64,000 nt of DNA from Terriglobia bacterium (GCA_020072565.1 JAIQGI010000045.1:1-64000); one strand, 5' to 3'; shown: positions 117-28,878, counted from the stretch's first letter. Made by a program: numbers and translations. Notes: generated from the sequence alone by a model not told the origin.

Positions 117-1859
117 CTAGACAATGGGGTACACCTTACTATGTTCGTCCACAACCTCCCAAACGGTTGCCCACATCCGCTTACCGCGCTCATCCTCATA
201 TCGATCGGGAAAGTGAATCAGCTTTGCCTCTGATCGGAGTTCAAATCCGCCCAGGACGGCTGCACTCGCTCCTGCCATTGATTTCTGAGCGACTTCCACG
301 GCAGATTGCAGGGTATCCAGTGGTGCCTCAATCAAGATGGCGTCATGAACGGGGGCACAGATTTGAATTCCACACCCAATTGCATAGCTGCAGGCCAGGC
401 GCAGCATTTCCGCCCCATTGGCCTGCATGGGAAAATTCCGCAGGGAACGTGAATTGCTCTCCGACCCAATATGGAGCGTCCACCCAAAAGCGGTTGAGAT
501 GCGACTTTGGAGCATCGCGTAGTCGACCGCGGCATCGGACCATCGCCAGAATCTGCGGTACGTTTTATGGTGGAGCTGAAGGAGGTCGCGTGCAACGACG
601 GGGGGCTGCGCGATCCGTGCGGCTAGTGACTCAGCCCCCATCCCATACTGGACTGCAAGCACGCAGGCCTTGAATTGCTCCCGCAACGATCCGTGAGTCT
701 GCTTTGTCCCATCCGTCGGAATAGCGCCGGCCTGTTTCCCAAATGCCAGGTAAGGGTCACCAGAACAATAGGCTTCGATCATCGCATCGTCGCCGGATAG
801 CGCGGCAGCAATTCCGAATTCTTGCTGTGCCCAGTCTATGTACGCCAGCCCGTGGCCCGGCTCCGGCCGGATCAATCCTCTTAGCCACACAGCAGGTCCG
901 AAGATGAATTTGCTATTGCTGGGCTGGTTTCGTCCTGTGCGAGAGCTGAAGGCAGACAATAGACATCGATTCCGGCCATCCTTGCCAACCGTCAAATCAG
1001 ACAGCCGCATCTGTGACAACGAGACACGTAGCTCTCGCATTGGCGCGACCGCCGGATACACGCGCGCCATTTCACGGAAAGTATCATCATCAAGCGCAAG
1101 TGCTCCGGATGTAAGAAGTGGCCATGGAATCTTCTGTCTGGAAAGCCAACTTGCCCACCGATCACTCTTAAATGTTTGGCCCTCAAAGACTTGATAATCC
1201 CGGTCGATCCGATCGATAAGACCGGCCTGTATTGCCGTCCAGTTATCCCGCAAAGTCGCCAGCGCCGACATGTCAATGGGAACGCCAACATCCTCCATTT
1301 TCGCCGCCGCAACCATATAGCGCCCGCGGAGGAGGGCGCGCGGGACATCAAGTAGAGGCAGCATACGGGTAAAGAGCTGCGACAGGGCAGAGACGTCCGA
1401 CTCGCAATAGTCCAGGAGTGCGTCACGTTCCGCTTGGGTCCAGGGACCGCCGCGAAGTGCAAGCTGACGCATGCTCTCCTTTTCTACGGCAGCGATGCTG
1501 TCAAGCCCGAACCAGGCGAGTGCACCTAGCAGACCGCGGCCGCGGGGTGTCTCGCGGCCGTTGGTCGTGCACCGAAACTCAACATAGAGGTCCAAAATGT
1601 TTATGGGTGCAGCCCAACCTAACGCCAAGTGGCATCCAATCTCTGCACTGGCATAGTAAGCAACCATCAGACAGTCTCCAGTGATCGGGTAAGGCGGCGC
1701 CTCAAGCTTTTCAAGGTCGTCTTGCCACAGCCGTATCTTCCTGCCGGAAACGATATCCCAGGCCACCATGCAGATTGGGGCCGGCCGCTCTCCGGCGGGC
1801 GCCGCGAACTCGAAATCCACGATCCAGACTTCCCGGTAGTCCATAGTTCCAATAAACAT
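117..1859 (-). CDS. Family A DNA polymerase with 3'-5' exonuclease domain (plasmid/ICE type)
   Basis: A 580-residue protein with an N-terminal DnaQ-like exonuclease and a C-terminal PolA palm. The exonuclease shows D15 and E17 in VDFEF and a late YCESD motif near residue 150. The polymerase part shows motif A (YIDWAQQEFG, near 340), motif B (REQFKACVLAVQYGMG, near 400; R, K and Y present) and motif C as VHDAILIE near 510. Bacterial Pol I has HDE in motif C; here Glu is replaced by Ala. There is no 5' nuclease domain, and at 580 residues it is much shorter than the roughly 930 of Pol I. This architecture is known from plasmids, phages and integrative elements, which fits the island context. 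The start overlaps the stop of the upstream 198-residue gene, so the two are probably cotranslated. The role in replication or repair of the element is inferred. Confidence 0.87.
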   Translation of the reverse strand: MFIGTMDYREVWIVDFEFAAPAGERPAPICMVAWDIVSGRKIRLWQDDLEKLEAPPYPITGDCLMVAYYASAEIGCHLALGWAAPINILDLYVEFRCTTNGRETPRGRGLLGALAWFGLDSIAAVEKESMRQLALRGGPWTQAERDALLDYCESDVSALSQLFTRMLPLLDVPRALLRGRYMVAAAKMEDVGVPIDMSALATLRDNWTAIQAGLIDRIDRDYQVFEGQTFKSDRWASWLSRQKIPWPLLTSGALALDDDTFREMARVYPAVAPMRELRVSLSQMRLSDLTVGKDGRNRCLLSAFSSRTGRNQPSNSKFIFGPAVWLRGLIRPEPGHGLAYIDWAQQEFGIAAALSGDDAMIEAYCSGDPYLAFGKQAGAIPTDGTKQTHGSLREQFKACVLAVQYGMGAESLAARIAQPPVVARDLLQLHHKTYRRFWRWSDAAVDYAMLQSRISTAFGWTLHIGSESNSRSLRNFPMQANGAEMLRLACSYAIGCGIQICAPVHDAILIEAPLDTLQSAVEVAQKSMAGASAAVLGGFELRSEAKLIHFPDRYEDERGKRMWATVWEVVDEHSKVYPIV

Positions 1860-8398: not shown

Positions 8399-9430
8399 CT
8401 ACTGAAGGCTGGGTTTTCCTCTTGTAGATCCGGCTACCTCATGGCATCCCCGCCGCAGGTCCAATAGGCCCGGCTCCTGCTCCAGAATTTCCCCGTGAGC
8501 AGCGACAAGATCCTCCAGATGCCCAAGGGCGCGATGATCTTCTGGACACGCCACCATCGCAGTAATGAAACTCCTCGCAGCATCGCAGTATCTTCCCAGG
8601 CCCTGGAGAGCAATACCGAGGTTCTTGTGCGCGTTATGACGCTCGGAATCGATCTCGATTGCAGCACGGCAGTGCGCCTCAGCTTCCTGATACCGGCTTT
8701 CCAGATTGAGGCAGTATGCATAGTTGTTATGCAGGAAATACCAGACAAGGTCCGGTTCCTGGGGCAATTCAGCCGCCCTGGAATACACGTCCAACGCAGC
8801 TTTGTGGTCACCTGATTGCTCACGAGCCTGCCCCATGGCCAACAGGCACTCGGCCTTTTCACCAGTGGTATCCACCAAGACGAGAATCTTCTGGTAATAA
8901 CCGTAGGCAGCGGCGAACCGGCCCACAGCGGCGCACTCCCCGGCGAGGCCCCAAAGCGCTTGCACGATCTCGTCCGTGTTTTCCGTGCGCTGAGATAAAT
9001 CCGAGAGCATTTGGTCCACGTCCTCAATCGAGACCAGCTCGCCGTCCGGTGTTATAAACCCATCGAAATTCCCAGGTTGGTTCATGAGGATATCCCTCCT
9101 TTCGGATCGTCTGGTTCCGTGCCGGGCTGCGATTCCTGTGGTGACGGCCGGGATTTCTGTTTGGAGCGCGGCACGAAGTTGATCGACCAGCCCTGTTGGT
9201 AGATCGGATCGTCCGGTGGCACGGGCTTGATCCCATAAAACCGGCAGTCCGCCCCAAAACACCACGTTCGATTCTTCCTTGGTCAGGGGCGAGTTAGGGA
9301 CAAGCCGTCTGGAAGGCGACAGAGACTCAAGCGGCGGTTTGTCTGATTCCTGCTTCCTGCCGAAGACCTGGAACATTTCTTGAAGCCGTATCTCGCTTTT
9401 ATCCTCTGGACCTTTGTTGTCGTCTGACAT
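8399..9430 (-). CDS. Tetratricopeptide repeat protein
   Basis: A 343-residue soluble protein. The C-terminal 200 residues form about five TPR-like helical pairs, with typical patterns such as AYGYYQKILVLVD, ALDVYSRAAELPQEPDL, YCLNLESRYQEAEAHCRAAI and AHKNLGIALQGLGRYCDAA. The N-terminal 130 residues are polar and of unknown fold. TPRs act in protein interaction, so this is probably a scaffold. It starts 13 bases after the 148-residue gene, in one operon with that gene and the radC homologue. Confidence 0.75.
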   Translation of the reverse strand: MSDDNKGPEDKSEIRLQEMFQVFGRKQESDKPPLESLSPSRRLVPNSPLTKEESNVVFWGGLPVLWDQARATGRSDLPTGLVDQLRAALQTEIPAVTTGIAARHGTRRSERRDILMNQPGNFDGFITPDGELVSIEDVDQMLSDLSQRTENTDEIVQALWGLAGECAAVGRFAAAYGYYQKILVLVDTTGEKAECLLAMGQAREQSGDHKAALDVYSRAAELPQEPDLVWYFLHNNYAYCLNLESRYQEAEAHCRAAIEIDSERHNAHKNLGIALQGLGRYCDAARSFITAMVACPEDHRALGHLEDLVAAHGEILEQEPGLLDLRRGCHEVAGSTRGKPSLQ

Positions 9431-9442
9431 TCTTTGCTCCTG

Positions 9443-9889
9443 TCATGAACCGGTTCGAACTTCGAGGATTGGCCGCAGTTCATTGGCAACTATTTTCTTT
9501 CCAGAATCGAGCAGAAGCCAGCACCCGTAGAAGTTGTGTCGACAAAATGTGGCAGCTTGCCACGGTTTGGCCTTTACTCCCAGGACGACTCCCTGGATGA
9601 TTCGGCCCTCTGAGAGGCCTGCTACCCGAGTGCCAACCCTGGGACGCCAATTTCGTGGCGCATGTTTACTAATGAGCTGCGGCACCTTCCGCCTGGCGAC
9701 AGCACAAGGCGGCGGCCCGAGGCGGTTGAGTTGCAGGATGGCATGTTCGTCAGTTGGACCTGGTCGTTTAAAGACCAACAATGTCCCCGGCAGGCGTTGT
9801 GCATCAGGCTCGGATAAACCATTGCGTGCGTTGCCGCCTATGCCCTGCCCTGACGCAAGAGTTCGATCATCGAGATCCTGGTTATCCAT
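9443..9889 (-). CDS. Hypothetical protein in the radC operon
   Basis: A 148-residue protein. No family recognised. The start lies 3 bases from the stop of the radC 3' part, and the stop is 13 bases before the TPR gene, so all three look like one operon. The C-terminal half includes GVVLGVKAKPWQAATFCRHN and YGCWLLLDSGKKIVANELRP, which suggests a small beta-rich domain. Confidence 0.6.
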   Translation of the reverse strand: MDNQDLDDRTLASGQGIGGNARNGLSEPDAQRLPGTLLVFKRPGPTDEHAILQLNRLGPPPCAVARRKVPQLISKHAPRNWRPRVGTRVAGLSEGRIIQGVVLGVKAKPWQAATFCRHNFYGCWLLLDSGKKIVANELRPILEVRTGS

Positions 9890-9891
9890 GA

Positions 9892-10188
9892 TCAGCCTCC
9901 CAAGAGCCCACTGTCCGCGAATGAGAAGAATGCCTCCTGGCCAACAACAACGTGGTCCAGAACTCGGATGCCCAAAACCTTCCCAGCCTCACAGAGCCTC
10001 GACGTGCAGTTGCGATCTTCATGGCTCGGCTCAGGACACCCCGAAGGATGGTTGTGCGTGAAGATTACGGCGGCGCTGTTGGCGAGTATCGCTGCTTTGT
10101 AAACCTCGCGTGGGCATACCACCGAACTGCTGAGAGAGCCCTGACTCACGAGGTTGATGCCGATGAGTCTGTTTTTGCTGTCAAGCAT
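9892..10188 (-). pseudogene. radC: 3' part of a RadC/JAB-domain gene split by the RIT element
   Basis: Ninety-eight codons covering the core of the RadC-like JAB (MPN) domain: LDSKNRLIGINLVSQGSLSS, then PREVYKAAILA, the metal-binding HNHPSG with a downstream Asp in SHEDRN, and VLDHVVVG. The usual sequence before LDSKNRL (strand with E-x-F-x-V-L) is missing here and is found at 13.6 to 13.8 kb on the same strand, across the recombinase element. An ATG at the junction has AAGGAG 8 bases upstream, supplied by the element's inverted repeat, so this part could still be translated. Small RadC-like proteins are common on integrative elements; their biochemical role is unsettled. Confidence 0.8.
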
Positions 10189-10214
10189 AACTATGTCTCC
10201 TTCCAGACTATGTC
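10189..10214. repeat. Left terminal inverted repeat of the RIT element
   Basis: AACTATGTC and GACTATGTC boxes separated by TCCTTCCA. It matches the reverse complement of 13576 to 13601 with two mismatches. A third, inverted box (GATATAGTC) is at 10266 to 10274. On the minus strand this repeat provides an AAGGAG sequence just before the ATG of the radC 3' part. Confidence 0.8.
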
Positions 10215-10318
10215 TTCAACATTTGTTGCAGCCTGACTGAGCTTGCAGACTCCGTAGCTCGACTCGATATAGTCTTGGCTCCTTAAACCAGTTCAATTCC
10301 AGGCGAAAGGAGCCAACC

Positions 10319-11560
10319 ATGAAATACAGATACATCCCCAACGAACCAGTATTCATAATCCAGCCACCAAGAGGTCCGCTTGCCGCTTACGTCCAGCCGT
10401 TTTGCGCATGGGCGTTTGATCAAGGATATGAGCGGCATAGCGTGCGCCGCCGAGTTGCCCTGGCGGCGGACTTTAGTCAATGGCTTCAGCGGAAAGATGT
10501 CAGCGTCACAGAGGTCAGCTCGGAACATCCGGCGGAATACCTGCGACATCTCTGGCGTCAAAGGCCGATCCACGGTGGCGACAGCCCCTCTCTGAAGCAG
10601 TTTATGGAGTTTTTGAGACACCAAGGAATCATCGCCGTAGATCAACCGAATCCGGAACCTACCACGCCGGTCGAGCAGTGCCTGCGGGAGTTCGAGACTT
10701 ATCTGCAAGATCAACGTGGACTGGCCGTGACCACGGTATCGCAATACACGTTGTACGTCCGTTTGTTTCTGAGAAAATGTTTCGGTGACGATCCGATAGT
10801 ACTGACAGACCTGCGGGCCGATGATGTTACCGGATTTATACAGCAAGAATCGTCGCCTACCCATTTCGTGCGACCCAAGGCTATCGCAATATCGCTGCGA
10901 TCGTTCTTTCGGTTTGCTCACTACCGTGGTGCGATTACCGCGGACCTGGCTGCCTCTGTCCCGAAGGTCGCCAGCTGGTCGATGAGCGGCATTCCAAGGG
11001 CGATCTCCGAGGATCAGACCCGCAAGTTGCTATCCAGCATCGAGCGAGGACATGGCAAAGGCCTTCGCAATTATGCGATCCTGCTCCTGCTTGCAAGACT
11101 AGGGTTGCGATCGGGCGAAATCGCATCCCTCGAGATTGAAGACATTGACTGGATTTCCGGATCACTCAAGGTGCGCGGCAAAGGACGGGAAGCCCTGTAC
11201 CCATTGCCGCAAGACGTGGGCGAGGCGATTGTCGCATACCTGCGTCACGGGCGACCGCCCTCGACAAGCCGACGTTTGTTTTTGCGGTGCATGGCTCCTT
11301 TTCGCGGTTTTCGAGGTTCGCCGGCCATTGGCGGCATAGTCCACTATGCCATTAAACGCGCAGGCGTCGAGGCGCCGACCCGGGGATCTCATCAGTTCCG
11401 CCACGGCCTCGCTTCTCAGATGCTCCATCATGGCAGCTCTCTAAAAGAAATCGGCGAACTGCTGGGCCATCGGAGTATTGAAGTCACGAAGATCTACGCC
11501 AAGGTGGATATCGATGCATTACGCAAGCTCGCGTTGTCCTGGCCAGGAGGTGTGCAATGA
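10319..11560 (+). CDS. Tyrosine recombinase A of the RIT element
   Basis: A 413-residue integrase with a SAM-like core-binding domain (about residues 115 to 210) and a catalytic domain. The catalytic residues are present: Arg in GLRSGEIASL, Lys in VRGKGREALYP, HQFRHG box, LGHRSIEVT with His, and Tyr in KIYAKVD. AAAGGAG precedes the ATG by 6 bases. The stop overlaps the start of the second recombinase by 4 bases (ATGA). It presumably binds the terminal boxes and cuts or exchanges strands jointly with the other two proteins. The 110-residue N-terminal extension is longer than in XerC/D. Confidence 0.88.
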   Translation: MKYRYIPNEPVFIIQPPRGPLAAYVQPFCAWAFDQGYERHSVRRRVALAADFSQWLQRKDVSVTEVSSEHPAEYLRHLWRQRPIHGGDSPSLKQFMEFLRHQGIIAVDQPNPEPTTPVEQCLREFETYLQDQRGLAVTTVSQYTLYVRLFLRKCFGDDPIVLTDLRADDVTGFIQQESSPTHFVRPKAIAISLRSFFRFAHYRGAITADLAASVPKVASWSMSGIPRAISEDQTRKLLSSIERGHGKGLRNYAILLLLARLGLRSGEIASLEIEDIDWISGSLKVRGKGREALYPLPQDVGEAIVAYLRHGRPPSTSRRLFLRCMAPFRGFRGSPAIGGIVHYAIKRAGVEAPTRGSHQFRHGLASQMLHHGSSLKEIGELLGHRSIEVTKIYAKVDIDALRKLALSWPGGVQ

Positions 11561-12489
11561 ACACACTTCGAGAGGCCCTGCAGCAGTATTTGAGCCTGCG
11601 CCGCAGCCTGGGATTCAAACTGCGCGAGGATGGCGCAAGGCTGTTGGACTTTGTTACGTTCATGGAGCAACGCAATGCGTCCTACATTACCCACGAATTA
11701 GCTCTCAGTTGGGCGCAGGCCCCCACCGCTCTACCTACCGAGTGGGCGCGGAGGCTGGGTTTTGTCCGGGTCTTCGCGCGTCACCGGAGCGCGACCGACC
11801 CTCGAACACAGATTCCACCCAATGGGCTGTTGCCGCAGCCGTCCACGCGCATCCGGCCGTATATCTATTCGGATGCTGAAATCCAGGCCTTGCTCAATGC
11901 CGCGCTCAAGATGCGTCCCCTGACGCCATTGCAGCCGTGGACCTACTATTGCCTGATAGGTCTGCTGAGCGTTTCAGGCATGCGTGTTGGGGAAACCCTC
12001 AACCTTGAACTTCAAGACGTCGACCTCGACGCGGCTGTGCTAACGATTCGCAGCGGTAAGTTTGGCAAGTCTCGGCTCGTGCCTTTGCACGCTTCAACTT
12101 GCGAAGCACTTGCTGATTACATCGCGCGGCGCGACCGTTTTGCGGCGGGAAGATCAACATCGCCTCATCTGTTCTTATCCCGTCTCGGCACCCGATTAAA
12201 TGACAGGACGGTTCATGTAACATTTATCGCGCTATCCCGGCAGGCTGGATTGCGCGGCCCGTCAGATAGCAAGGGCCCGCGCTTTCATGATTTCCGTCAC
12301 CGATTTGCTCTGCTGATCTTGCTGAACTGGTACCGCAGGGGAGAGGATGCCGAGCGGCTTTTACCCGTCTTATCCACCTATCTCGGCCATGTGCACCTGA
12401 ACGAGACCTATTGGTATCTACAGAGTTGGCCTGAACTGATGCATGAGGCGATGGCCCGCCTCGAGCACCGATGGGAGGAAAAACCATGA
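11557..12489 (+). CDS. Tyrosine recombinase B of the RIT element
   Basis: A 310-residue integrase. Catalytic motifs: GMRVGETLNLEL (Arg), SGKFGKSRLVPL (Lys), FHDFRHRFA (His, Arg), YLGHVHLNETYWYL (His and Tyr). It starts inside the stop of recombinase A and ends inside the start of recombinase C, which indicates obligate coupled translation and a roughly equal supply of the three proteins. It belongs to a different subfamily from A and C, as expected for RIT elements. Confidence 0.88.
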   Translation: MNTLREALQQYLSLRRSLGFKLREDGARLLDFVTFMEQRNASYITHELALSWAQAPTALPTEWARRLGFVRVFARHRSATDPRTQIPPNGLLPQPSTRIRPYIYSDAEIQALLNAALKMRPLTPLQPWTYYCLIGLLSVSGMRVGETLNLELQDVDLDAAVLTIRSGKFGKSRLVPLHASTCEALADYIARRDRFAAGRSTSPHLFLSRLGTRLNDRTVHVTFIALSRQAGLRGPSDSKGPRFHDFRHRFALLILLNWYRRGEDAERLLPVLSTYLGHVHLNETYWYLQSWPELMHEAMARLEHRWEEKP

Positions 12490-13484
12490 CGACTCCTTCC
12501 AGTCTTGCGCCGCTTTTGGAACACTTCTTCACCCAGCGTTTGACGCAACAGCGTCAGGCAAGTCCCCACACGATCAGTTCTTATCGCGACACCTTTCGTC
12601 AATTGCTCAAGTTCACCGAACAGCGACTTCATAAGGCGCCATCAAACCTGATGTTCGAACAACTCGATGCCCCCTTGATTGCAACATTCCTCGATCACCT
12701 GGAGAAGAATCAGGGGCTGAGCGTGCGGAGTCGGAATTTGCGGCTGACTGCGATTCACTCGTTCTTTCGTTACGCAGCCCTTGAAGCGCCGCATCATTCC
12801 GCGCAGATCCAGCGCGTGCTTGCCATTCCCAGCAAACGATTCACCCGGACCTTGGTCCGCTTTCTATCGAGGCCGGAAGTGGACGCTCTGCTCGCAGTTC
12901 CCGACCAGAGAACTTGGCGTGGGCGCCGCGATCACGCATTTATCCTCATGGCGGCACAAACGGGTCTACGGCTCTCGGAAATGACCGGACTCAAACGCCC
13001 GGATCTTTTGCTGGAAGCTGGAGCTCATGTCCGGGTGATCGGAAAAGGCCGCAAGGAACGATGCACACCATTGGCGAAACCGACAGTGTCAGTGCTGAAA
13101 GCCTGGATGCGAGAACCGCAAAGAGGCAGCCAGCAGTTGCTGTTTCCCAATGCCAGGGGCGAACGTCTCACCGTCCACGGTGTTCAGTACATGTTATCCA
13201 AGCATTGTGCGGCGGCCGCGAAGGTGTGCCCGTCGCTAATACAGAAACGCGTAACCGTCCATGTATTCCGACACACCGTTGCCATGGATCTTCTTCAAGA
13301 AGGCGTGGATCTGGCTGTGATCGCTCTCTGGCTCGGTCACGAATCCGTGGAAACAACCCAAATCTACGTGGAGGCAACACTGGCCATGAAGGAGAAGGCG
13401 CTCGCCAAGACGGCGCCGCCGGATGGCAGGGTAAGCCGATTTCGACCCGACGATGCGCTCCTTCACTTTCTTAACAGCCTCTAG
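12486..13484 (+). CDS. Tyrosine recombinase C of the RIT element (XerD-like)
   Basis: A 332-residue integrase if begun at the ATG overlapping the previous stop (ATGA); an in-frame ATG 15 bases upstream is possible. It has a SAM-like domain (about 15 to 105) and catalytic motifs GLRLSEMTGLK, IGKGRKERCTPL, VHVFRHTVA and LGHESVETTQIYVEA. All catalytic residues are in place. It is followed 10 bases later by the first palindromic box (GACTATGTCG at 13494), so the gene lies close to the element end. Confidence 0.88.
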   Translation: MTTPSSLAPLLEHFFTQRLTQQRQASPHTISSYRDTFRQLLKFTEQRLHKAPSNLMFEQLDAPLIATFLDHLEKNQGLSVRSRNLRLTAIHSFFRYAALEAPHHSAQIQRVLAIPSKRFTRTLVRFLSRPEVDALLAVPDQRTWRGRRDHAFILMAAQTGLRLSEMTGLKRPDLLLEAGAHVRVIGKGRKERCTPLAKPTVSVLKAWMREPQRGSQQLLFPNARGERLTVHGVQYMLSKHCAAAAKVCPSLIQKRVTVHVFRHTVAMDLLQEGVDLAVIALWLGHESVETTQIYVEATLAMKEKALAKTAPPDGRVSRFRPDDALLHFLNSL

Positions 13485-13493
13485 TCCTTACCA

Positions 13494-13625
13494 GACTATG
13501 TCGTGCGATCGGGCGCCTTCACATCGAGTACTGCTTGTGTCTGGCCCTGACTGCCAATGGGCTCTCGAATCGCGCGACATAGTCCGGAAGGAGACATAGT
13601 ACCTACTATGTCGTCCACGACATAG
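13494..13625. repeat. Right end of the RIT element: inverted repeat and palindromic boxes
   Basis: An inner pair, GACTATGTCG at 13494 and CGACATAGTC ending at 13584, forms a long imperfect inverted repeat. The region 13576 to 13601 is the counterpart of the left terminal repeat. Just outside, 13606 to 13625 is a perfect palindrome of two 9-base arms (CTATGTCGT and ACGACATAG) around CC. Such box arrays are expected binding sites for the three recombinases. Confidence 0.75.
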
Positions 13626-13818
13626 GTGTGAGGACGTGAAATTGCTCGCGATCGGCATCGGCGTAAAGTTTCTCCTGTGCGAAGGTAAATACTTCGTGAG
13701 AGCCGCTGAAGCGCTTCCAGGTACTCTGGAGAGAGCCATCACGAATCAGAGATAGTCGTTGTCGGGGGATTCGGTAGGATGTTGCAGATAGTTGCTGTGG
13801 ATTCTGACGATCATTCAT
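13606..13818 (-). pseudogene. radC: 5' part of the RadC-like gene split by the RIT element
   Basis: The frame from ATG 13818 (AAAGGAG about 15 bases upstream) encodes a segment ending in LYADADREQFHVL, the strand that in RadC-like proteins leads directly into LDSKNRLIG. Here it runs instead into the element's palindrome (TPMSWTT) and stops. Joined with 9892 to 10188 it gives about 161 residues, a normal length for the short mobile-element RadC-like family. This confirms that the recombinase cassette inserted in the middle of the gene. Confidence 0.8.
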
Positions 13819-14405
13819 GATGATGCATGCTCCTTTTGGTCGAGGTCACATGCACCAGGAGCCGAAAATAGAAAAGCCGCGCATCAGCGCGGCTCATTTT
13901 TCGGGGGAGACTTTGTTCGGAACTTCTTCCGCGCATCGAGCGCTTCAGCGCTCAAGGCACCGTGCGTCTCCTGACCGGTTGCCGGGTCCGACAACTCTCG
14001 GACCACTCCTGATGCTATCTGATATTATCCACGATTCGCGCTCTTGGTCAACAAGGAACCGTGTCTTGCCCTGCATGCCTGTTTTTCCCCGCACCCTGGT
14101 TTTAGCGCGGACTCGACTGTTTCTTACCGGTTTCGCAGGTCTACCGTAGGACTGGAATCCCTGGCAAGCATGAGCGGCTGGAAGTTTGCACCGCAGCATG
14201 GGATTGCCTGGAGCCCATCTCGATACCCTTTGATGCCGGGGTCAATGACGTGCATTGCCCACGGCCATCCGCACGTTGAATTTGGACTTATGATCAGAAC
14301 GTGGGCGGGGCGGATCGCGCCGTCATGCGGGAGATCAATTGGTAACTGTACGCCGCGTTCCAATTGGCGAAGCGCCGCAACTTAGATGCGAGAATTGTGA
14401 GGGCC
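13819..14405. other. Gene-poor stretch with one terminator
   Basis: About 590 bases without a gene I can support. It contains the hairpin at 13875 to 13901. A minus-strand frame of 79 codons (14124 to 14363) gives partly protein-like sequence but has no ribosome binding site and no recognisable family. Confidence 0.4.
13875..13901 (+). terminator. Rho-independent terminator, possibly bidirectional
   Basis: AGCCGCGC, loop ATCA, GCGCGGCT, then CATTTTT. The eight-base stem is perfect. On the minus strand it is followed by TTTTCTATTTT, so it may stop transcription from both sides between the radC operon start and the nuclease region. Confidence 0.7.
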
Positions 14406-15772: not shown

Positions 15773-17821
15773 TTATTCGAGGATTGCTTTCATGAAGGCG
15801 TCCGCCGGGTCCGCATAGAACACGATGTTCACCTTGGTCGCCATTTCGTCCGGCAGGTCTAGGAGTTGCCTTCTTGCTGATATTGGCATTAGAAGCTGGG
15901 CAGCGCCTTTCTCGACCGCTAACTCGGCCACGGCGACCGGGTTAGGGATCATCTCTACCGAACCGCCCAAGTTGAGCGAACCCACAACGATCAGGCCGCC
16001 TTTCGTGCTTCGCTCCATCAGGCTTCCGCATAGCGCCAACAGTGCGGGCAAGCCCAGGCCATGCCCGGACCGGTCCGCATCCATCGCCCGCAACTGCACC
16101 GAAAACTCGTGGCCGCGTGGGTCGCGGTCTCCGACCAGTTCCTTGGCCTGTGAATAGAGGTTTTGCTCGCCGTACCGGACACTCTCGCGAAAGGCCGGCG
16201 GCACGGGCGCGTTTAGGATCTTGACACCGCTGCCCGGCCCGCAGGTAGATTCGATGCGGTAGAGGGAAGCAGGTGCCTCCCTGCCGCCTGGGCTGATTGC
16301 CCACACCTGTCCGGGAGGCAGCGGGTCGGCTTCAATGGTTTCGTCGCTGTGCAACTCTGGCGTCGAAACAAATTGTTCCACGCCGTCTACGCCCAAGAAG
16401 TAGCTGAAATGAGTGTTGCGAAATTCAGTCTTCAAGCACCGCTTCTGCTGTTCTTTCACCCGCCGCCGCGCCTCAAGGGCGATCCGTACGACCGCCTCCA
16501 GCTCCTCGTCGGGAATCGCGGCGTCAGGATCTGGGAACAACAGCTTGAGCAAACCGCTCATGGTCTTGTTCACCGCTTCAATGTCGCGACCGCTCAGCGC
16601 CCCACCCCAGTGCACCCGGTTTTGCAATGCCGATATCCGAGTGCCCTCGCGTAGGTTCGTCCAACATTCGGACAGGAAATCGGTCACCAATCCGAAGTGG
16701 TCGGTGAGGTGGTCGTCGGCCTTGAGCTTCGGGAAGTCCCAGCCGGGTGCATAGGCGTGAATGCGGTCCATGAAGGCCGTGTCGTTGCGCATTTCAGGCG
16801 GCAAGGTGCTGAGCAAGTGGCCGATCCGCTGCTGTTGCGCCACGTCCACATCAAAGTTACCCACCATGACGATGCTGCCGGAAGCCCGGATGCTGTCCTT
16901 GCCGCGGGAGAACTCGCCGGCGGCCATATAACCTTTCATGATGTTCACGCCGTCCTTCTGGTCGAACGAAATGCCTGACACCTCATCGAAGCACACCACA
17001 TCATACAGGCACACCAGACCGCGCTGCCCGTTGGACATGTTCACGAACATTTTGGCAACTGTCGCCTTGCCGCCTGATATCAGGTGAGAATAGGGCGAAA
17101 TCTGCTGGAATAGGTGGCTCTTGCCGGTCCCGCGCGGGCCGAGTTCGACGAGGTTGCAGTTCCGCTCCACGAAAGGAACCATTCGCAGCAGCACGACCAT
17201 CTTCGCGCGGTCCGTCATTGCCGCGGGCTCCAGGCCGATCGAGCGAAGCAGGAAGTCCTTCCACTCGGCCGTGGTAAACTGTCCGCGGCCCTTCCTGAGC
17301 CTTTCCAGCACATCCAACTTCGATAGCTGGATTGCCCGCAGGCTCTGGATGGCGAACGGTCGGCCATGTGTCTCCTCCGCAATCGCAGCATCGTAAGTCA
17401 GCGTCACCTCTGCATAGAAGCCGTCGCTCAGCATCCGCTCGTGCTCCTGAACGAGCGTATCTGCAATCCGCACGTCCCGCAATCCCAGGCTCGGCAGTTC
17501 CACCAGGAATGAATCGGTCTTCGCGTCCAGCCGAGCCTTGACGATGTCGATCAACTTCACAGAACCTTTATCGCGAGCCTTTGCCTTGAAGAGCTCCTGA
17601 TCGGTTGTGCGGACCGTGCGATCCTGTAACTGCCGCTCGACGATCTTTAGCCCTTCTTCGATCTCCTGCTCGTCAACCGTTGCGCAGTATCGCCCGAGCA
17701 GAAATTCCACGACGTACGTAGGCACCGGATACTGCCGGCTGTACCGCCGCACCAGGTCCTTGCGAACGAGGAAGCCATCGAAGGCCGAAGCAGCAAGTCG
17801 ATCCAGATGGTCGAGTTCCAT
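15773..17821 (-). CDS. brxL: BREX protein BrxL (AAA ATPase with Lon-like C-terminal domain)
   Basis: A 682-residue protein from ATG 17821, preceded by GGAGGTAACA inside the end of pglZ; a start 19 codons upstream would lie within pglZ. The AAA core has Walker A in LGPRGTGKSHLFQ and Walker B in DVVCFDEVSG. The C-terminal 200 residues resemble the Lon protease fold (SGHGLGLPALLALCG, LIVVGSLNLGGSVE, KGAAQLLMP), but the Ser of the Lon Ser-Lys pair is not where expected, as I recall for BrxL in general. It is the last gene of the BREX operon. In BREX type 1, BrxL is a DNA-binding AAA ring needed for phage exclusion. Confidence 0.9.
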   Translation of the reverse strand: MELDHLDRLAASAFDGFLVRKDLVRRYSRQYPVPTYVVEFLLGRYCATVDEQEIEEGLKIVERQLQDRTVRTTDQELFKAKARDKGSVKLIDIVKARLDAKTDSFLVELPSLGLRDVRIADTLVQEHERMLSDGFYAEVTLTYDAAIAEETHGRPFAIQSLRAIQLSKLDVLERLRKGRGQFTTAEWKDFLLRSIGLEPAAMTDRAKMVVLLRMVPFVERNCNLVELGPRGTGKSHLFQQISPYSHLISGGKATVAKMFVNMSNGQRGLVCLYDVVCFDEVSGISFDQKDGVNIMKGYMAAGEFSRGKDSIRASGSIVMVGNFDVDVAQQQRIGHLLSTLPPEMRNDTAFMDRIHAYAPGWDFPKLKADDHLTDHFGLVTDFLSECWTNLREGTRISALQNRVHWGGALSGRDIEAVNKTMSGLLKLLFPDPDAAIPDEELEAVVRIALEARRRVKEQQKRCLKTEFRNTHFSYFLGVDGVEQFVSTPELHSDETIEADPLPPGQVWAISPGGREAPASLYRIESTCGPGSGVKILNAPVPPAFRESVRYGEQNLYSQAKELVGDRDPRGHEFSVQLRAMDADRSGHGLGLPALLALCGSLMERSTKGGLIVVGSLNLGGSVEMIPNPVAVAELAVEKGAAQLLMPISARRQLLDLPDEMATKVNIVFYADPADAFMKAILE

Positions 17822-17822
17822 G

Positions 17823-20171
17823 TTATTTGTTACCTCCAACGGTGGTGGCTTGTTTACAGACCACGCGCCCGAACGCATCGATAATCACCAGGCTAGCCAT
17901 CGTCCCATCGAGAGAATCGTCAGCAACCAGCAGTGCCGCCTTCCCGTTGGCATCCAGGGCTTTGGGATTGGTGATGCTTGAACTGGAAACGTTGGGCTTC
18001 GTTCGCAGGTCGGCGACTAGTCCTTCCGCCGCAGGTTCAACACTTACCCGGCACCGCAGACCTACCCACTGGACTTCGCTCATCGTAACAGCCACGCCGG
18101 CCGGAGCGCCCGTCGATGCAAACGTCAGGACGGGAACCAGGCACTCCTGCAGGCTCACGCCGCCGTGGGCGTATTCCTGCCCGGCCACGAAACAGTGCAC
18201 CCCTGGCGCGTAGGCAAACTGCTCCTGCGGATTCCATGACCAGCCGGCGACAGGCACCTCGACGTGAGAACCATCCTTGATCGACGCACATCGCGACCAG
18301 CGGCTCTCGGCCAGGTACTTCGGCAGTTGCACTTTCGGCATTCCGCCGGGTACTAGCAACCATCCGTGATCGGTCACAACGCGCACTCGCTTCCAGCCGG
18401 CTTCCAGCAGTCCTTGTACCCGTTCGAGCAGAAGCTCCAAATGATCGTTGACTCGCGTTGCCAGTTTCGCCTGAAAATCGTGTCCGAGCTTGTCGAACTC
18501 GCCGTACTCCGTCCAGCCACGGGCGTCCTTCGCCATCGGATTGCCTGACTCAGCCGAGCCGAGTACCTGGTAGCCCGCTGCTGAAAGGAGCTTGCGGAAA
18601 CGGTCAGCGGTCAGCCCCTCGTCGTTGTCGGTTAGTTTCGGGCAGAAATCGGTCCCCAGGTGCCCGCCGTGCGTTTTCTCCGCAACTGGCGATGCCGCCG
18701 GTTTGGCCGTCGCCGTGACCGTGGGCAGCGCCGCCCAGCGCCAACCTGCGGACACCTCCAGCTTTGCTTCAGTAGCCATCACCATGAGCCGCTGGCCGAT
18801 ATCGAACCGCAGCCCGTCCACGAAAAGGATGCACTCACCCGTTTCGCCCACGACGCCTTTTTGCTGCGCCACCGTGGGCAAGGCTTTCATCGCTAGGCAT
18901 TGCTGGAAGTGACGGGCAGTGTCTTCCAGCCATGGCAGATAGACGGATCGCACGGCCGCTTGGACGGCTGCGGCGTCTTCCGCCCTCTTAATGCACGCCA
19001 GCGCCCTAATCGCCCCATCATCGGCAAGATGCCCTCCCTCGGTGTACAGCATGGCCATTGCTTCGGCCGACTCGCCGCCTAGCGTTGCTGCGGTACGCTT
19101 GGCCAGCACCGCCAGGTGCCCCAGCGCGTTCGCCAGAGGGCACATGCCCAGCCGCGCCCATACCCAGCTGCGGCGTGAGCTGTGCTCGGTTTCCAACTGC
19201 TGCAGGCGCTGCCGTGCGTCGGCCGGCTTCATCGAGCCTACTTCTACCAGTGCCGCCCGCAGCGCATTCTCCATCGCGTCGTTTTCATCGGGCCAAGGGT
19301 CCTTATCGAAGATCAACTGTCCCTTCGGTTTCGCCCGCCGTAGCAGATCCGGTATTCCCGGATACAATGCTGGCGACTCGGTAAACCGTTGCCACACGCC
19401 GTACCACGCGTCCAAACGCTCCCCGAGCTTTTCGCCGCCACCGATCTCGCCGTCCTCCTCGGGATTGAAGTTGTAATCCTGCGAACAGCGGCTGCGGAAC
19501 GCCAACCACTTCGCCTCGTCCCACTGCCCGCGCATGCCTTCCGGGTCACCTAGCCAAAGGAGCAGATCACGCGGCGTGTCGCCGATCATCAGCTTGTCGA
19601 AATCGTCCGCCTCCAGCCGTCGGTCCTGCAGCCGCGCAACCGGCGTCACCGCCAAGTGCGAAAGAGCGCCCTTCATCGCCTGAAGGGTGAGCTTGTCTTC
19701 GGCCACGTCCAGCCCCAGACCATCCTCGTCATTCACAAGGAATGCGCGGACCGTCCAGTCCTTGCCGTTCTTCTGCGTCCAGACCGTCCCGCGGTACTGA
19801 AGCTCGACCAGCGGCTTGAACGCATCGCGACATTCCTCGACCGCTCGGAGCGTCTGGCGGCTGACGCCCGGCATGTAGATTACCGGCACGGTGTCAGGCC
19901 AGACGAGGTTGGGAAACTTGTCCGCCCGCACTGCTGGCTCGATTACACACCGCAGCCAAATTGCCGGTCCGGTCCGCGTCGCCGGCTCGAAGTCTCCCAG
20001 CGTCAGCAGTTCGGGCATAAGCCCGCGCAGTTGCTCCACAACCAGCCGCCACTGACCATCTGCGTCCGTCCATAGCACCGCCACTGGAGCAACCACGTCG
20101 CCGGGGTTGTATCGGGCGGCGTGGGAGAGGGAGGCGCGAACCGCCTCAAGGAGTACCGTTTTATCCTTCAT
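17823..20171 (-). CDS. pglZ: BREX protein PglZ (alkaline phosphatase superfamily)
   Basis: A 782-residue protein. The phosphatase-like domain in the second half has ECILFVDGLRFD (first metal-binding Asp), VRVVTDHGWLLVPGG and YAHGGVSLQECLVPVL, all typical of PglZ. A C-terminal 100-residue domain follows. The ATG at 20171 overlaps the stop of the AlbA gene by 4 bases. PglZ is the signature protein of BREX systems and contacts the BREX methyltransferase complex. From motif spacing it seems closer to the so-called type B PglZ, but that assignment is tentative. Confidence 0.9.
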   Translation of the reverse strand: MKDKTVLLEAVRASLSHAARYNPGDVVAPVAVLWTDADGQWRLVVEQLRGLMPELLTLGDFEPATRTGPAIWLRCVIEPAVRADKFPNLVWPDTVPVIYMPGVSRQTLRAVEECRDAFKPLVELQYRGTVWTQKNGKDWTVRAFLVNDEDGLGLDVAEDKLTLQAMKGALSHLAVTPVARLQDRRLEADDFDKLMIGDTPRDLLLWLGDPEGMRGQWDEAKWLAFRSRCSQDYNFNPEEDGEIGGGEKLGERLDAWYGVWQRFTESPALYPGIPDLLRRAKPKGQLIFDKDPWPDENDAMENALRAALVEVGSMKPADARQRLQQLETEHSSRRSWVWARLGMCPLANALGHLAVLAKRTAATLGGESAEAMAMLYTEGGHLADDGAIRALACIKRAEDAAAVQAAVRSVYLPWLEDTARHFQQCLAMKALPTVAQQKGVVGETGECILFVDGLRFDIGQRLMVMATEAKLEVSAGWRWAALPTVTATAKPAASPVAEKTHGGHLGTDFCPKLTDNDEGLTADRFRKLLSAAGYQVLGSAESGNPMAKDARGWTEYGEFDKLGHDFQAKLATRVNDHLELLLERVQGLLEAGWKRVRVVTDHGWLLVPGGMPKVQLPKYLAESRWSRCASIKDGSHVEVPVAGWSWNPQEQFAYAPGVHCFVAGQEYAHGGVSLQECLVPVLTFASTGAPAGVAVTMSEVQWVGLRCRVSVEPAAEGLVADLRTKPNVSSSSITNPKALDANGKAALLVADDSLDGTMASLVIIDAFGRVVCKQATTVGGNK

Positions 20172-21409
20172 ATGATGGCTCCGGCTGCAGGCACGATGGT
20201 CCTCAGGTAGTCGTCTGTCTCTTCGAAGATTGGGTCGCGACCGGTCATTGCACGAACGAGTGGGATTACCTTACTACGAATGCCCATCCCTCGCGCCTCG
20301 ACGTATCCATAGTCCCGGAGGATATCCACAAGATGAGGATTTCGTGGTGACCGCTGCCCTGCGATCATCTTCTCAATCGTCATCATGTTGGGCAATGGCC
20401 CAGGGCTGGTCACTTCAAACCTGTCGGAATAGACGACGAACTCAATATCGGCAAATCGCGTCCAGTCCCGGTGGGCGACTGCATTCAGCAGGACCTCTCT
20501 GATGACTTCAGGAGAAAAACGGGGCGCTGCCTCTCTGCGAAAGCCCTCGCCGATTTCACCGCTCTGGTTCGTAACAAAGGGCATCAGGATTGAATCAGCC
20601 ATGTCGAGAAGTCCGTCACCCGCGCGGACACGCCTGTTTTCGCCGGACGTAGTCCATAGAGGAAGAATTGGACCGTCAAGAACCCTGTCATAGCGCGCGT
20701 CATAAGACTTCTCTTTCCCCTCAAAGATCATCATTCGAATGCCGGCCTGACGCAGAAACCGTCGTGGGGACTGACCAAAGAGCAGCATCCCCGCAATCGT
20801 ACAGACGGGTACGCCTCCGGGGCTATCGGCCAAGAAGCCGAGAGCGGACAGACGGCGGCACCATTCGGCGTCTGACTGCGGCAGCGAGGGATCTCGCGTG
20901 ATGTGTTGCAGGAAATCGGAAAGACGTTGTCGGTCAAGCGCGTCCAGTCCAGCGCCAGAGACCGGTAGCAATTCGGTGTGCAACATGCCGCCGATTTCAT
21001 GCAAGCGCGCCTGTTGTTCGCGGGTTGCCCGACGAGAGGTGGTGCCCACCCGAATGTAGATCTCTTCTCGTCCCTCATGCCTGAGAACGTAAGGTTTACT
21101 TGGTCCCTCAGCAAAGGTCACCACGGCCACGCGCTTTCCATCGTCCATCGCCACCTCTTCGTAGAAGGGCAGCAGCATAGGGTGGATTTTGGAAGCGAAG
21201 ATGTTCATCACCCATTCCTCGGTGTCCGGGCGCTGAATCCCACTGATCGTCCCGTCGTCCTCGACGCCAAGCAGAAGTCGCCCCCCCTTGAAGTTGGCCA
21301 TCGCAACAACCTCTTTCCCGATCTGTTCGGGGCGCACGTCGTCCCGCTTAAACTCGACGCCTGAGCTCTCGCCCGACGCTATGATTTCCAGGAGTTCGGC
21401 TTTGAGCAT
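20168..21409 (-). CDS. AlbA_2/Schlafen-type DNA-binding protein with a GHKL-like ATPase domain
   Basis: A 413-residue protein. Residues 10 to 130 form an AlbA_2 domain (SSGVEFKRDD, VVAMANFKGGRLLLGVEDDG, EEIYIRVGTTSRRAT). Residues 290 to 400 match the ATP-binding domain of the same COG2865-type family (VIREVLLNAVAHRDW, VVYSDRFEVTSPGPLP, GMGIRSKVI). Family members are usually called transcriptional regulators, though evidence is thin. GGAGGTGACAG precedes the ATG. It lies between the PHP/SMC ATPase and pglZ. In BREX loci such proteins are recurrent accessories, and it may control or modulate the system. Confidence 0.8.
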   Translation of the reverse strand: MLKAELLEIIASGESSGVEFKRDDVRPEQIGKEVVAMANFKGGRLLLGVEDDGTISGIQRPDTEEWVMNIFASKIHPMLLPFYEEVAMDDGKRVAVVTFAEGPSKPYVLRHEGREEIYIRVGTTSRRATREQQARLHEIGGMLHTELLPVSGAGLDALDRQRLSDFLQHITRDPSLPQSDAEWCRRLSALGFLADSPGGVPVCTIAGMLLFGQSPRRFLRQAGIRMMIFEGKEKSYDARYDRVLDGPILPLWTTSGENRRVRAGDGLLDMADSILMPFVTNQSGEIGEGFRREAAPRFSPEVIREVLLNAVAHRDWTRFADIEFVVYSDRFEVTSPGPLPNMMTIEKMIAGQRSPRNPHLVDILRDYGYVEARGMGIRSKVIPLVRAMTGRDPIFEETDDYLRTIVPAAGAII

Positions 21410-21423
21410 CTGTCACCTCCGCT

Positions 21424-24069
21424 TTAGAAACCGTATTTCTCTTTGCGCTGAATGAACGCCTCGCGTCCTCCCTCCAGGATGGATGCGGCCTGCCCTCGGA
21501 TCTCAGGAACGTCCACCGCACCCTGGAAGTCATCTGGCATGCTGGCCTGGTCTTCGCCCGCTTGCAGTACGCCAATCCACTCGGCATCGCCGAACACCGG
21601 GATGTTCGCATTGTGTGTCGCGAAGATGAACTGCCGGCCAAGTTTTGTGGTTCGGAGTTCACTGACGATGCGTTCTGCAATGAACGCGTTGTCCAGATTG
21701 TCTTCGGGCTGATCGACGATCAGGGGGTCTCGATTGTCGAGCAGGAGCAAGTGAAGCACAGCCGTGCATTGTTGACCGGTCGAGAGCTTCCCAATCGGGC
21801 GGTAGTCCTCTTTGTCGCCATGTGAAATGTTCAGATCCAGCCGGATGATGTCCGGCAACTCCAAAGCTTCGAGTTCCAGCAGCTTGGATTCCGGCAGTTT
21901 CGCCAGCGCCTCTGCAACGCCGGGCGTGATCCCCCAGCCCGCGCTCTTTAGTGCTTCCGGCCCTTGTCGGATCGTCTGCGCGAGCTTGATGGGCGAAAAA
22001 TCATCCGCCTCATCAAGCCACAGCAATCTCTTTTCACCCACGCCTTCCAGATCACATGCCAAGAGGAAGTCCTTCAGTGCTCTGCGGTTGGCAGCGTGAT
22101 CGACATGCGGCTTGAGTTTGCCCACCAACTTCTTGCGCAGCGACTTCAGTTCAACGTCAATCTCCGCGGCCATGTCGGCAACTGCCTTTGAGAGGTCAGC
22201 TAAAAGGTTTTCGCGTTCCCTGCGCAGCGCGCCGACCAGCTTCTGTCGGGTGTCACGACCGGACTTCAACGGCCTAATCCGTTCGATGTCTTTAAGCACT
22301 TGCTGGTACGCTGAGCCGATCTCTCGACCGGAACGGCCCTCAAGTGCCGGAATCTCGGCAAACTGCTTCTCCAGGGCAGCTTCATCCCCGGCAATCGCCT
22401 TGCTCAAAACAGCCAGCCTCTCATTGACTGCAGTATTGGAGGAGTTAATTTTCTGCCTGACATCGGCAATCAGGCTTTCGAATTCGGTGCGTAGCGCTGT
22501 GAGGAGCTCTCGAATTCCCCTGAGTTCTTCAGCGTGCGGCAAGCTCTTTGTGGCTTCGTCCCCGAGAAAAGTCGTATCGGGCAAGGCATCTTGCAGGCCG
22601 GTGAGGGCTTCCTCCAAGTTGCGTTGCTCTTCCCTAACGCGCAATGCCAGCTGTTTCTCTTTCTCCAACTTCGGAACAAGCGCCAGTTTCTCCCCGAGAC
22701 CAATGTCCCGGAACTGCTTGGCCTGCTCCTCCAACTTTGGCAGACGTTCAACCTGGTCCTCGATCTCAGCGAGTTTGCCCCGAGCGTCCATTAAGTGCTT
22801 CGCATTATCCCGCAACTTGTTCCGTATCTCGGTCGGTCGCTGGTCGGTTGCATCCCCGCTGGAAAGAAAGCGCCGCAGAAGGAGCGTCAGCCCGCCCTCG
22901 TCTTGAGCAATGTCAAAGATCTCGTTCTGCCCGAAGATCTCCAGTCTCGGAAGCAGGTCCAATGGCCTGAATGTAGAGGTATTTCCTGATTCGTCGCATA
23001 CAATCGCGGCCTCGCCATAGCGACGTGAGATGGTGAACTTGCGCCCTTGCATTGCGAAGGAGCGGATGTCGATCTCGACACGTCCGGGGCCGAGGTTCTG
23101 CTTCACAATCTCTCGGTGTGTCCGTTTCGCTCGGTCACTGATGGGTTCTAGCTCCAGCGCATAGCGAATGCATTCCAGAAGCGTCGTCTTGCCTGTTCCG
23201 CGCCCGCCAATGATGGTGTCCAGATGCCCCGACCATTGGATATCTACACCGGATAAATAACCACCGGTGAACCGGACACCCTCCAGCCGGGAAAAGAACC
23301 GTTCTTCCCGATCACTCAACAGTCGTACACGTGATTCGGGGTCAAGGAAGGCCTGCTTAAAGGCCTCGAAGCCCGGCTGGGTCATGCGCACAAGGCAGCA
23401 TGTCTGCGGCATACGAAGATCGCTGGGCTCAGCGACATCCCGCGCGTTGATAATTCCGAGTGGGCGATCACGCCGATAATTGGGATCCTTATTGAGAAGA
23501 ATCTGACGGTGAGAATTCCCTTCGTCGGTCTTCAGCTCGTCGAGGGTGCCAGGAATCTGAGCGGCCTGGAGGTGTGGATTCTGCCAGACATGGTTCAGCT
23601 TAAGGCGCAAAATCCCGCTGTCGTCCGTGCAGTGTGCGGCGTAGGCTAAACCTCCCAGCTTATGGACCTCCTCCAAGAGTTGCTCGGCACTTAGCGAGGA
23701 CGGCCGCACACCCTCCTTCGGGTCCAGAAGCTTCAAGTTCCCCAAATACCGTTCGAGTTGTTGAACAGTAGTGTCTTCTGGAAACAGGCATACGAAATGA
23801 GCCTTCTCTGAAGAGGCGATCTCAAATCCGGGAAACACCGTGATGCCGCTGCTGGCCAAAACTCGCCGGAGCGCACCCAGTGCATCCACGCACCCATGGT
23901 CGGCAATACCTACCACGCGGATGTCCTCCGACTGACACACCTGCAACACCTCTGCATTGTAGGCGGATTCATTCAATCCGTGGGCTTTGCCACGGAATTT
24001 CGCTGCATAGTCCCAGGGATTGAGTTGCAGCGCACATTTCCAGAACCGTGCGTATCTGATGGTGCTCAT
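21424..24069 (-). CDS. PHP-domain SMC-like ATPase (TrlF-type) in the BREX operon
   Basis: An 881-residue protein. Residues 20 to 190 are a PHP-like phosphoesterase domain (IRVVGIADHGCVDALGA, FPGFEIASSEKAHFVCLF, YAAHCTDDSG). Then comes an SMC/RecN-like ATPase: Walker A GGRGTGKTTLLE near 289, a long coiled coil (about 420 to 660), signature LSTGQQ, Walker B LIVDQPEDNLDN and a His loop FATHNAN. It looks complete. The ATG overlaps the pglX stop by 4 bases. Nuclease-SMC fusions are typical of anti-phage or anti-plasmid systems, so the protein could be a second defence factor carried in BREX. I am sure of the domains, not of the function. Confidence 0.85.
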   Translation of the reverse strand: MSTIRYARFWKCALQLNPWDYAAKFRGKAHGLNESAYNAEVLQVCQSEDIRVVGIADHGCVDALGALRRVLASSGITVFPGFEIASSEKAHFVCLFPEDTTVQQLERYLGNLKLLDPKEGVRPSSLSAEQLLEEVHKLGGLAYAAHCTDDSGILRLKLNHVWQNPHLQAAQIPGTLDELKTDEGNSHRQILLNKDPNYRRDRPLGIINARDVAEPSDLRMPQTCCLVRMTQPGFEAFKQAFLDPESRVRLLSDREERFFSRLEGVRFTGGYLSGVDIQWSGHLDTIIGGRGTGKTTLLECIRYALELEPISDRAKRTHREIVKQNLGPGRVEIDIRSFAMQGRKFTISRRYGEAAIVCDESGNTSTFRPLDLLPRLEIFGQNEIFDIAQDEGGLTLLLRRFLSSGDATDQRPTEIRNKLRDNAKHLMDARGKLAEIEDQVERLPKLEEQAKQFRDIGLGEKLALVPKLEKEKQLALRVREEQRNLEEALTGLQDALPDTTFLGDEATKSLPHAEELRGIRELLTALRTEFESLIADVRQKINSSNTAVNERLAVLSKAIAGDEAALEKQFAEIPALEGRSGREIGSAYQQVLKDIERIRPLKSGRDTRQKLVGALRRERENLLADLSKAVADMAAEIDVELKSLRKKLVGKLKPHVDHAANRRALKDFLLACDLEGVGEKRLLWLDEADDFSPIKLAQTIRQGPEALKSAGWGITPGVAEALAKLPESKLLELEALELPDIIRLDLNISHGDKEDYRPIGKLSTGQQCTAVLHLLLLDNRDPLIVDQPEDNLDNAFIAERIVSELRTTKLGRQFIFATHNANIPVFGDAEWIGVLQAGEDQASMPDDFQGAVDVPEIRGQAASILEGGREAFIQRKEKYGF

Positions 24070-27551: not shown

Positions 27552-27589
27552 TGTTCCTCAGCCCTCTCCTGTATGCCGCATCAGAATCA

Positions 27590-28303: not shown

Positions 28304-28857
28304 GATCGGCTCCTCTCCATCCGCGGCGCGGAGTTGTCGATGTTTCGGATCTGACGTGCTTTGTTCTTTGCCGCATCAATTGCGATTCGCATCAGGTTTG
28401 GATCTTCTGTCCAGTCGATGAAATGGGCATAGTCGGTCACGATGTTCGCGTGCAGGCGGTCAGGCACGGTCACTTTGCCGTTGATGTCCCTCGGATTTGT
28501 CGGAAGAGAGATGCCAAGGAGTGCGTGCTGCTTGTTAAGTGTCATGTGGATTTCCCAATCAACCCACCGACGTTTCCACGTCTCCGCCCCACACAGGACA
28601 ATCGTAACCGAGCTGCCGGTGATGTGCTGCTCGCGAATGACCTGCTGTTGGTAGTTCACGTCATCGCTGCCGAAACGCCGCTCGATCGACGTGTCGGTAA
28701 TTATGTCGTAGCCGTCCGCGAAGAGCCTCGTGAACAGGTCGTAGTATCCCTGATCACGCTGATGGTGGTAGCTCACGAACACTTTGGGTTTCGTCGTCGC
28801 CAAAGGGCGAAGACCAAAAGGGTGTTGTCCGAGACCAAAGTTGCCGAAGCCGCCCAT
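28300..28857 (-). CDS. TIR-domain protein of the Thoeris ThsB type
   Basis: A 185-residue protein that is nearly all one TIR-like (TIR_2, PF08937) domain: KVFVSYHHQRDQGYYDL near residue 26, DDVNYQQQVIREQHITGSSV, then TIVLCGAETWKRRWVDWEI with the WxxWE that carries the likely catalytic Glu. TIR proteins of this group in Thoeris make cyclic or modified ADP-ribose signals on phage infection. AAGGAGATAGAACC precedes the ATG, giving it a strong start, 22 bases after brxC. It is cotranscribed with the BREX genes and coupled to the membrane protein. Confidence 0.82.
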   Translation of the reverse strand: MGGFGNFGLGQHPFGLRPLATTKPKVFVSYHHQRDQGYYDLFTRLFADGYDIITDTSIERRFGSDDVNYQQQVIREQHITGSSVTIVLCGAETWKRRWVDWEIHMTLNKQHALLGISLPTNPRDINGKVTVPDRLHANIVTDYAHFIDWTEDPNLMRIAIDAAKNKARQIRNIDNSAPRMERSRS

Positions 28858-28878
28858 GGTTCTATCTCCTTGAATCGT

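Follow-up and report, generated by a model that had tools for sequence, protein, structure and literature searches.

RIT elements have been described with terminal inverted repeats of ~28-34 bp, one of which is overlapped by a palindrome (PMC3414803, PMC10214605); as subgroup features, RitA is said to have two sequential core-binding domains and RitC an additional helix at its C terminus (PMC8138268). Insertions of RITs into radC have been published, namely RIT6 of Cupriavidus metallidurans CH34 CMGI-2/Tn6054 and the rit element of Bordetella petrii GI3 (PMC2864759, PMC3414803). The mobility of these elements was called undemonstrated, and an inverted repeat and a palindrome were seen without recombinase sites being convincingly recognised (PMC3414803); a table in another paper lists the target specificity and the empty sites of RITs as not tested (PMC10214605). 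In the part of the GInt account used here, GInts are described as having three recombinases and 6-nt staggered cuts, and experiments showed that 6 nt of attB are taken up in the joint of the circle (PMC5385486). A 6-bp fingerprint/footprint has been shown experimentally for SEs and is also reported for Tn554 (PMC10214605).

In the present study we have analysed a stretch of 64,000 nucleotides from Terriglobia bacterium (GCA_020072565.1 JAIQGI010000045.1:1-64000), called the window throughout, in which a complete RIT element interrupts a short radC gene at an exactly defined 6-bp site.

A complete RIT element in radC and its empty site

The first-pass annotation had proposed that a RIT element splits a radC homologue whose halves can be rejoined, and both points are borne out by an unbroken RadC match and by an empty site in the same genome. 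On the minus strand a half-ORF running from 13818 to ~13630 ends in ADREQFHVL and a second one, from 10188 to 9892, starts with (M)LDSKNRLIG, at the coordinates given by the annotation. The three-recombinase cassette with inverted repeats that it had placed between them corresponds to three adjacent tyrosine recombinase ORFs and to repeats at 10190-10214 and 13576-13600. The features of the locus, in window coordinates, are as follows.

9443-9889, minus strand: 148-aa gene downstream of radC, duplicated with radC at the paralogous locus (57% aa)
9892-10184, minus strand: radC 3' half, from LDSKNRLIG to the stop, with HNHPSG..PSxxD (ORF, profile match, paralogue)
10185-10190, minus strand: S3 core on the non-palindrome side, TTATGC, the target's own; identical in the uninterrupted paralogue
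10191-10214, plus strand: terminal inverted repeat on the ritA side, CTATGTCTCCTTCCAGACTATGTC
10319-11560, plus strand: ritA, tyrosine recombinase; two core-binding helical bundles follow one another, the second (119-204) most out of line with relatives
11557-12489, plus strand: ritB, tyrosine recombinase (RVGE, K, HDFRH, LGH..Y), ATGA overlap with ritA
12486-13484, plus strand: ritC, tyrosine recombinase (RLSE, K, HVFRH, LGH..Y), ATGA overlap with ritB
13494-13503, plus strand: subterminal box ACTATGTCGT, downstream of ritC
13576-13599, minus strand: terminal inverted repeat on the ritC side, CTATGTCTCCTTCCGGACTATGTC
13600-13605, no strand assigned: S2 core TACCTA (plus-strand reading), between palindrome and terminal repeat
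13606-13625, no strand assigned: 20-bp palindrome CTATGTCGTCCACGACATAG, two inverted recombinase boxes, at the same place in relatives
13626-13631, minus strand: S1 core on the palindrome side, TCACAC (radC strand), not the target's own; the paralogue has TTATGC here
13632-13818, minus strand: radC 5' half, codons M1 to VL (ORF and paralogue alignment)

The rejoined radC is an open frame of 161 codons with no stop and no frameshift, and the joined protein gives an uninterrupted match to RadC PF04002 (profile positions 3-121 of 121, E 1.8e-41), the RadC/JAB domain running through the junction, whereas the C half alone covers only positions 27-121. Against NF000642 the joined protein gives an E value of 7e-41, yet it falls under the equivalog cut-off of that model. 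An intact radC paralogue with 83% aa identity, collinear with both flanks, is present in the same genome (G000:C106, L056/L028). Its nucleotide alignment with the window consists of two blocks, 9027-10190 and 13631-13917, and window positions 10190 and 13631 correspond to one and the same base of the paralogue; since the two blocks abut at this single base, the genome itself supplies the empty site. The inserted DNA measures 3,440 bp (10191-13630). The insertion site had been given to within a few bases; the deletion first proposed, 10189 to about 13626, would leave an extra codon. Nor are the two halves directly adjacent in RadC, as had been stated, one residue (VL-M-LD, Met here) separating them inside the 6-bp core TTATGC (minus-strand reading, 10185-10190). 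Comparison of window and paralogue revealed no target duplication (TTATGC vs TCACAC). A duplication of 5 bp, our first idea, was dropped because the two sites differ and 6 bp suits all relatives.

The dN/dS values against the paralogue, about 0.08 for the N half and 0.15 for the C half at a dS of ~1, together with the lack of stops and frameshifts, indicate that radC was under selection during most of its divergence. The insertion had been considered probably recent; the intact state of both halves is in keeping with this, but the sequences argue for recency only relative to the split of the paralogues, at a dS near saturation, and provide no date. The duplicated module comprises radC, the 148-aa gene and part of a TPR-protein gene (window 9027-10190 and 13631-13917 against G000:C106) at 72-79% DNA identity, and among the 40 genomes searched it occurs in this one only. 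At the nucleotide level the DNA neighbouring the split radC was not found in other genomes among these 40, and the radC relatives inspected are uninterrupted at the VL(M)LD position; thus the situation that the annotation had named as an argument against an insertion, all relatives carrying these recombinases at the site, was not encountered.

The element body contains ritA, ritB and ritC in the order A-B-C, with ATGA overlaps (ritA stop 11560 and ritB start 11557; ritB stop 12489 and ritC start 12486) within the 4-8 bp expected of RITs, encoding products of 413, 310 and 332 aa (from the ATGA start). The catalytic motif is kept in all three proteins, R, HxxRH and LGH..Y having been located and K read from the sequence. 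The AlphaFold model of RitA shows two sequential core-binding domains, with helices 22-34, 39-58, 69-81 and 88-101 followed by 117-132, 137-155, 167-177 and 186-202, and that of RitC an extra C-terminal helix (324-331, pLDDT ~82) past the helix of the catalytic tyrosine. No fourth gene was found between the ends (10191-13599). The inverted repeat of 25 nt (24-bp ends), 96% complementary, and the 20-bp palindrome agree in kind with published RIT ends and are slightly under their lengths. By all features examined the element is a RIT, and, to judge by identical copies of relatives at several sites, it is presumably mobile. A search of the genome for other copies of the end repeats, suggested by the first-pass annotation, yielded none when as many as 3 mismatches were allowed. 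In the window we count 6 occurrences of the box GACATAGT vs 0.58 expected, a number reached by no shuffle.

Along radC the junction reads target - TCACAC - palindrome CTATGTCGTGGACGACATAG - TAGGTA - end repeat ... end repeat - TTATGC - target. As the paralogue carries TTATGC, the core of the target is retained on the non-palindrome side and a foreign core stands on the palindrome side; this foreign S1 core, TCACAC, was probably imported from an earlier site. From the sequences compared, the exact insertion point, the in-genome empty site, the lack of duplication, the unequal cores, of which the native one lies away from the palindrome, and the intact operon are established for this locus.

Other observations concern the surroundings. 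A second, diverged RIT-like trio (L059, G000:C57:31000-35863, RitB 38%) lies near a contig end of the same genome. A BREX-type defence cluster (BrxL, PglZ, PglX, BrxC; PADLOC models) occupies 15773-32322 of the window on the minus strand, starting ~2 kb beyond the split radC, and includes at 20168-21409 (minus) a 413-aa gene with weak pAgo and SIR2-APAZ-type model matches (E 5e-15), unusual for a BREX locus. At 117-1859 (minus) a family A DNA polymerase-like protein matches the PADLOC RT-associated PolA model (E 1e-22).

Cores and target choice among relatives

The relatives, dozens in number, were gathered by RitB similarity, and the census of targets describes that neighbourhood rather than all RITs. 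In relatives of several phyla we find the fixed layout target-S1-palindrome-S2-end...end-S3-target, the palindrome lying at one end of the element in some and at the other end in others. The native core lies on the non-palindrome side at all four testable loci, the window, L017, L101 and L177. At L017, 4 of 5 uninterrupted alleles have the S3 core ACGTCA, and at L101 the S3 core GCGCCA is found in 3 of 6 empty alleles, S1 occurring in none of either set; at L177 the S3 core TTCGCA is shared by 3/3 close homologues and S1 is CGCCCA. For L105 and L172 the same empty-allele tests found no uninterrupted alleles. Four relatives (L006, L007, L012 and L013) show no palindrome on either visible side and are presumably rearranged; the flanks of L007 look on both sides like 5' halves of different recombinase genes, which suggests recombination between RIT copies.

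A comparable set of 16 was defined as elements of the window's clade with RitB at least 53% identical and a palindrome present. All 16 of these closest comparable relatives are inserted at an Arg-His codon pair of tyrosine recombinase genes, the full HxxRH being visible in 15, and 47 of their 48 cores (S1, S2 and S3) encode Arg-His, for which the chance is 0.6% each. Among these targets, whose identity as tyrosine recombinases was confirmed, are ritC genes of other RITs, integrases associated with IS91 and two integron integrases that score over the curated cut-off. In L155 and L157 the RIT sits at the exact Arg-His codons of integron integrase genes, insertions that would inactivate IntI. More distant RITs occupy a serine recombinase gene (L161), radC at HNHPSG (L177) and IS66 transposase genes, where one insertion falls precisely on the Glu-Arg codons of DNNVIER. 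L169 (G460:C1 near 893000) is found in the T6SS gene tssF, at GPQDWLF, which resembles GRKSWLF of IS66, and its stored cores are of IS66 type; it apparently landed off target, and these cores reveal its donor site.

The three cores of the window include none of Arg-His type. Furthermore, RitA is an outlier, with 51% identity to the recombinase-targeting relatives vs 65% among those relatives, and RitC in the same comparison is not (76 vs 77). The greatest difference falls in the second core-binding domain of RitA (119-204), which shows 40% to these relatives vs 62% among them, with no overlap. That the cores are not of Arg-His type and that this DNA-binding domain is divergent suggests that the window's lineage switched its target from recombinase Arg-His codons, and the core-binding domain of RitA probably picks the target, so that the switch would have gone through it. 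Read in the radC frame, TCACAC gives VLTLD, and TCACGC, the core in radC of a same-family genome, is one base away. Such closeness to one of four compared radC cores is met by chance in 1.6% of all hexamers and in 12% of T....C hexamers; TCACAC is a plausible radC core, the resemblance alone being weak. S2, TACCTA, is like neither target type.

The lineage is represented by one radC insertion, none further having been found among the relatives fetched, and its specificity for radC is read from this one target and the cores. A single case would also be expected if an Arg-His-targeting element had hit radC once through a chance resemblance, and L169, an IS66-type RIT in tssF, indicates that such off-target insertions seem to happen. 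We consider this explanation unlikely. A normal element would bring Arg-His cores at S1 and S2, as seen for 31 of 32 in the relatives, whereas those of the window are of another kind; the off-target L169 has retained its IS66-type cores; and the core-binding domain of RitA is outlying. A scan of viral contigs with RitA gave no match, and among plasmids no full-length match exceeded ~52%.

A proposed circle with two crossover cores

We propose that the RIT entered the 6-bp core TTATGC in radC, at codons VL(M)LD, by site-specific recombination of the tyrosine-recombinase type. Its mobile form would be a circle closed by the joint end_R - core - palindrome - core - end_L, in which two equivalent crossover cores, inverted to each other, flank the palindrome. 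On crossover at either core, one half of the target would meet an arm of the palindrome and the other half an end repeat, the core of the target thereby staying beside the end repeat and the used core of the circle ending up beside the palindrome. The unused core, S2, would be kept as a record of an earlier residence. With either core usable, the body would be found in both orientations and the palindrome fixed on one side of the target, and excision between the outer cores would leave radC with an open frame whichever core remained (VLMLD or VLTLD). Movement of the circle through this two-core joint is what we infer from the arrangement of the copies.

In one Burkholderia genome the bodies of L010 and L011 are 100% identical and of opposite orientation, with 4.9 kb of one flank 99.9% identical, and the palindrome of one is the exact reverse complement of that of the other, both lying on the same side of the target. 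This is exactly the pattern that the model gives, because the circle would integrate through one or the other core. In G402, L211 and L214 carry an identical RIT body in both orientations at the same IS66 Glu-Arg codons. The S2 core is of the target type and in inverted orientation in 15 of the 16 relatives, consistent with S2 being a record of earlier residence.

Copies in both orientations and inverted end repeats could also be obtained if the body simply inverted in place between its ends and integration through an alternative core did not occur. Plain inversion, however, would leave the palindrome and S2 unchanged, and in L010/L011, for which it was rejected, the palindrome is reversed too. 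In G460, L229 has S1 CGGCGG and S2 ACGAAA, and L169, with an identical body, has S1 TTTCGT and S2 CCGCCG, the reverse complements of S2 and S1 of L229, respectively. Such a swap of cores between S1 and S2 speaks against inversion in place, which we regard as quite improbable, and is what excision of an L229-like element followed by integration through the other core is expected to produce.

Ordinary transposition that duplicates its target site, with the palindrome as a terminator hairpin having nothing to do with the insertion, is very improbable: the palindrome is able to form a hairpin and adjoins a gene end, but TTATGC vs TCACAC is not a duplication, no DDE transposase gene is present, and the palindrome, found at one end of the element or at the other, stays constantly on one target side, with flanking cores that change as recombination predicts, for instance in the L229/L169 exchange. 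It is scarcely credible that the two ORFs do not derive from one gene or that the draft assembly (135 contigs, 3.8% contamination) has created a chimera, given the unbroken RadC match, flanks collinear with the paralogue on both sides up to a boundary at one base, and a recombination-site anatomy identical to that of relatives in complete genomes.

We consider the two-core reading as a whole, comprising a RIT at a radC core, a two-core circle, the Arg-His rule and a target switch in this lineage, to be very probable. To a broader proposal we would give an even chance: RITs would be targeted parasites of conserved, often active-site, codons of other mobile genes, using a palindrome-centred two-core attachment site whose stored cores record the last one or two host sites, and the window's lineage would have switched to radC via the core-binding domain of RitA.

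Comparison with known systems

The window provides a base-exact empty site, and the comparison a concrete model of the attachment site together with a target rule. The six-base cores offer a way to read the previous host sites of an element, RIT mobility and the role of the three recombinases become directly testable, and RITs are seen to disrupt other mobile-DNA enzymes, integron integrases included, at highly conserved codons. New from the comparison are the fixed layout, the native-core rule, the Arg-His target rule, the two-core circle and the target switch; some of the regularities of targets and palindromes may already stand in Ricker et al. 2013, which is said to be the main RIT survey.

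GInts also have three recombinases, and their 6-nt capture follows the same logic as the core rule of the RITs, but they need a fourth gene, ginD, and form large islands, and the part of their account used here describes no two-core palindrome (PMC5385486). In SEs and Tn554, as in the window, the 6 bp of the target are kept at one end and the 6 bp of the circle are left at the other; they differ in their gene sets, IntA/Tfp/IntB/Srap and TnpA/B/C, and in having one joint core (PMC10214605). The accessory genes of these systems (ginD, srap, tnpC) are absent between the element ends, 10191-13599.

The RITs in tyrosine recombinase genes (L004-L017, L101, L102, L105, L154, L155, L157, L172 and L176) share with the window the clade, the ends, the palindrome and the core length, and are unlike it in that their 16 comparable members stand at Arg-His codons and have a distinct second core-binding domain in RitA. 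With the RITs of CH34 and B. petrii the window has in common the A-B-C recombinase genes with ATGA overlaps, the inverted ends, the one-end palindrome and the insertion in radC. In a Cupriavidus genome, L177 lies in radC, with another RIT ~32 kb away inside a transposase gene of IS66; it has the same layout and core rule as the window and fits the description of the published CH34 CMGI-2 case. The window differs from it in lineage (RitB ~32% identical) and in position, VL(M)LD as opposed to the A/S-HNHPSG zinc-motif codons of L177. The insertion of a RIT in radC is thus a known kind of event, to which the window adds a different lineage at a different position of radC.
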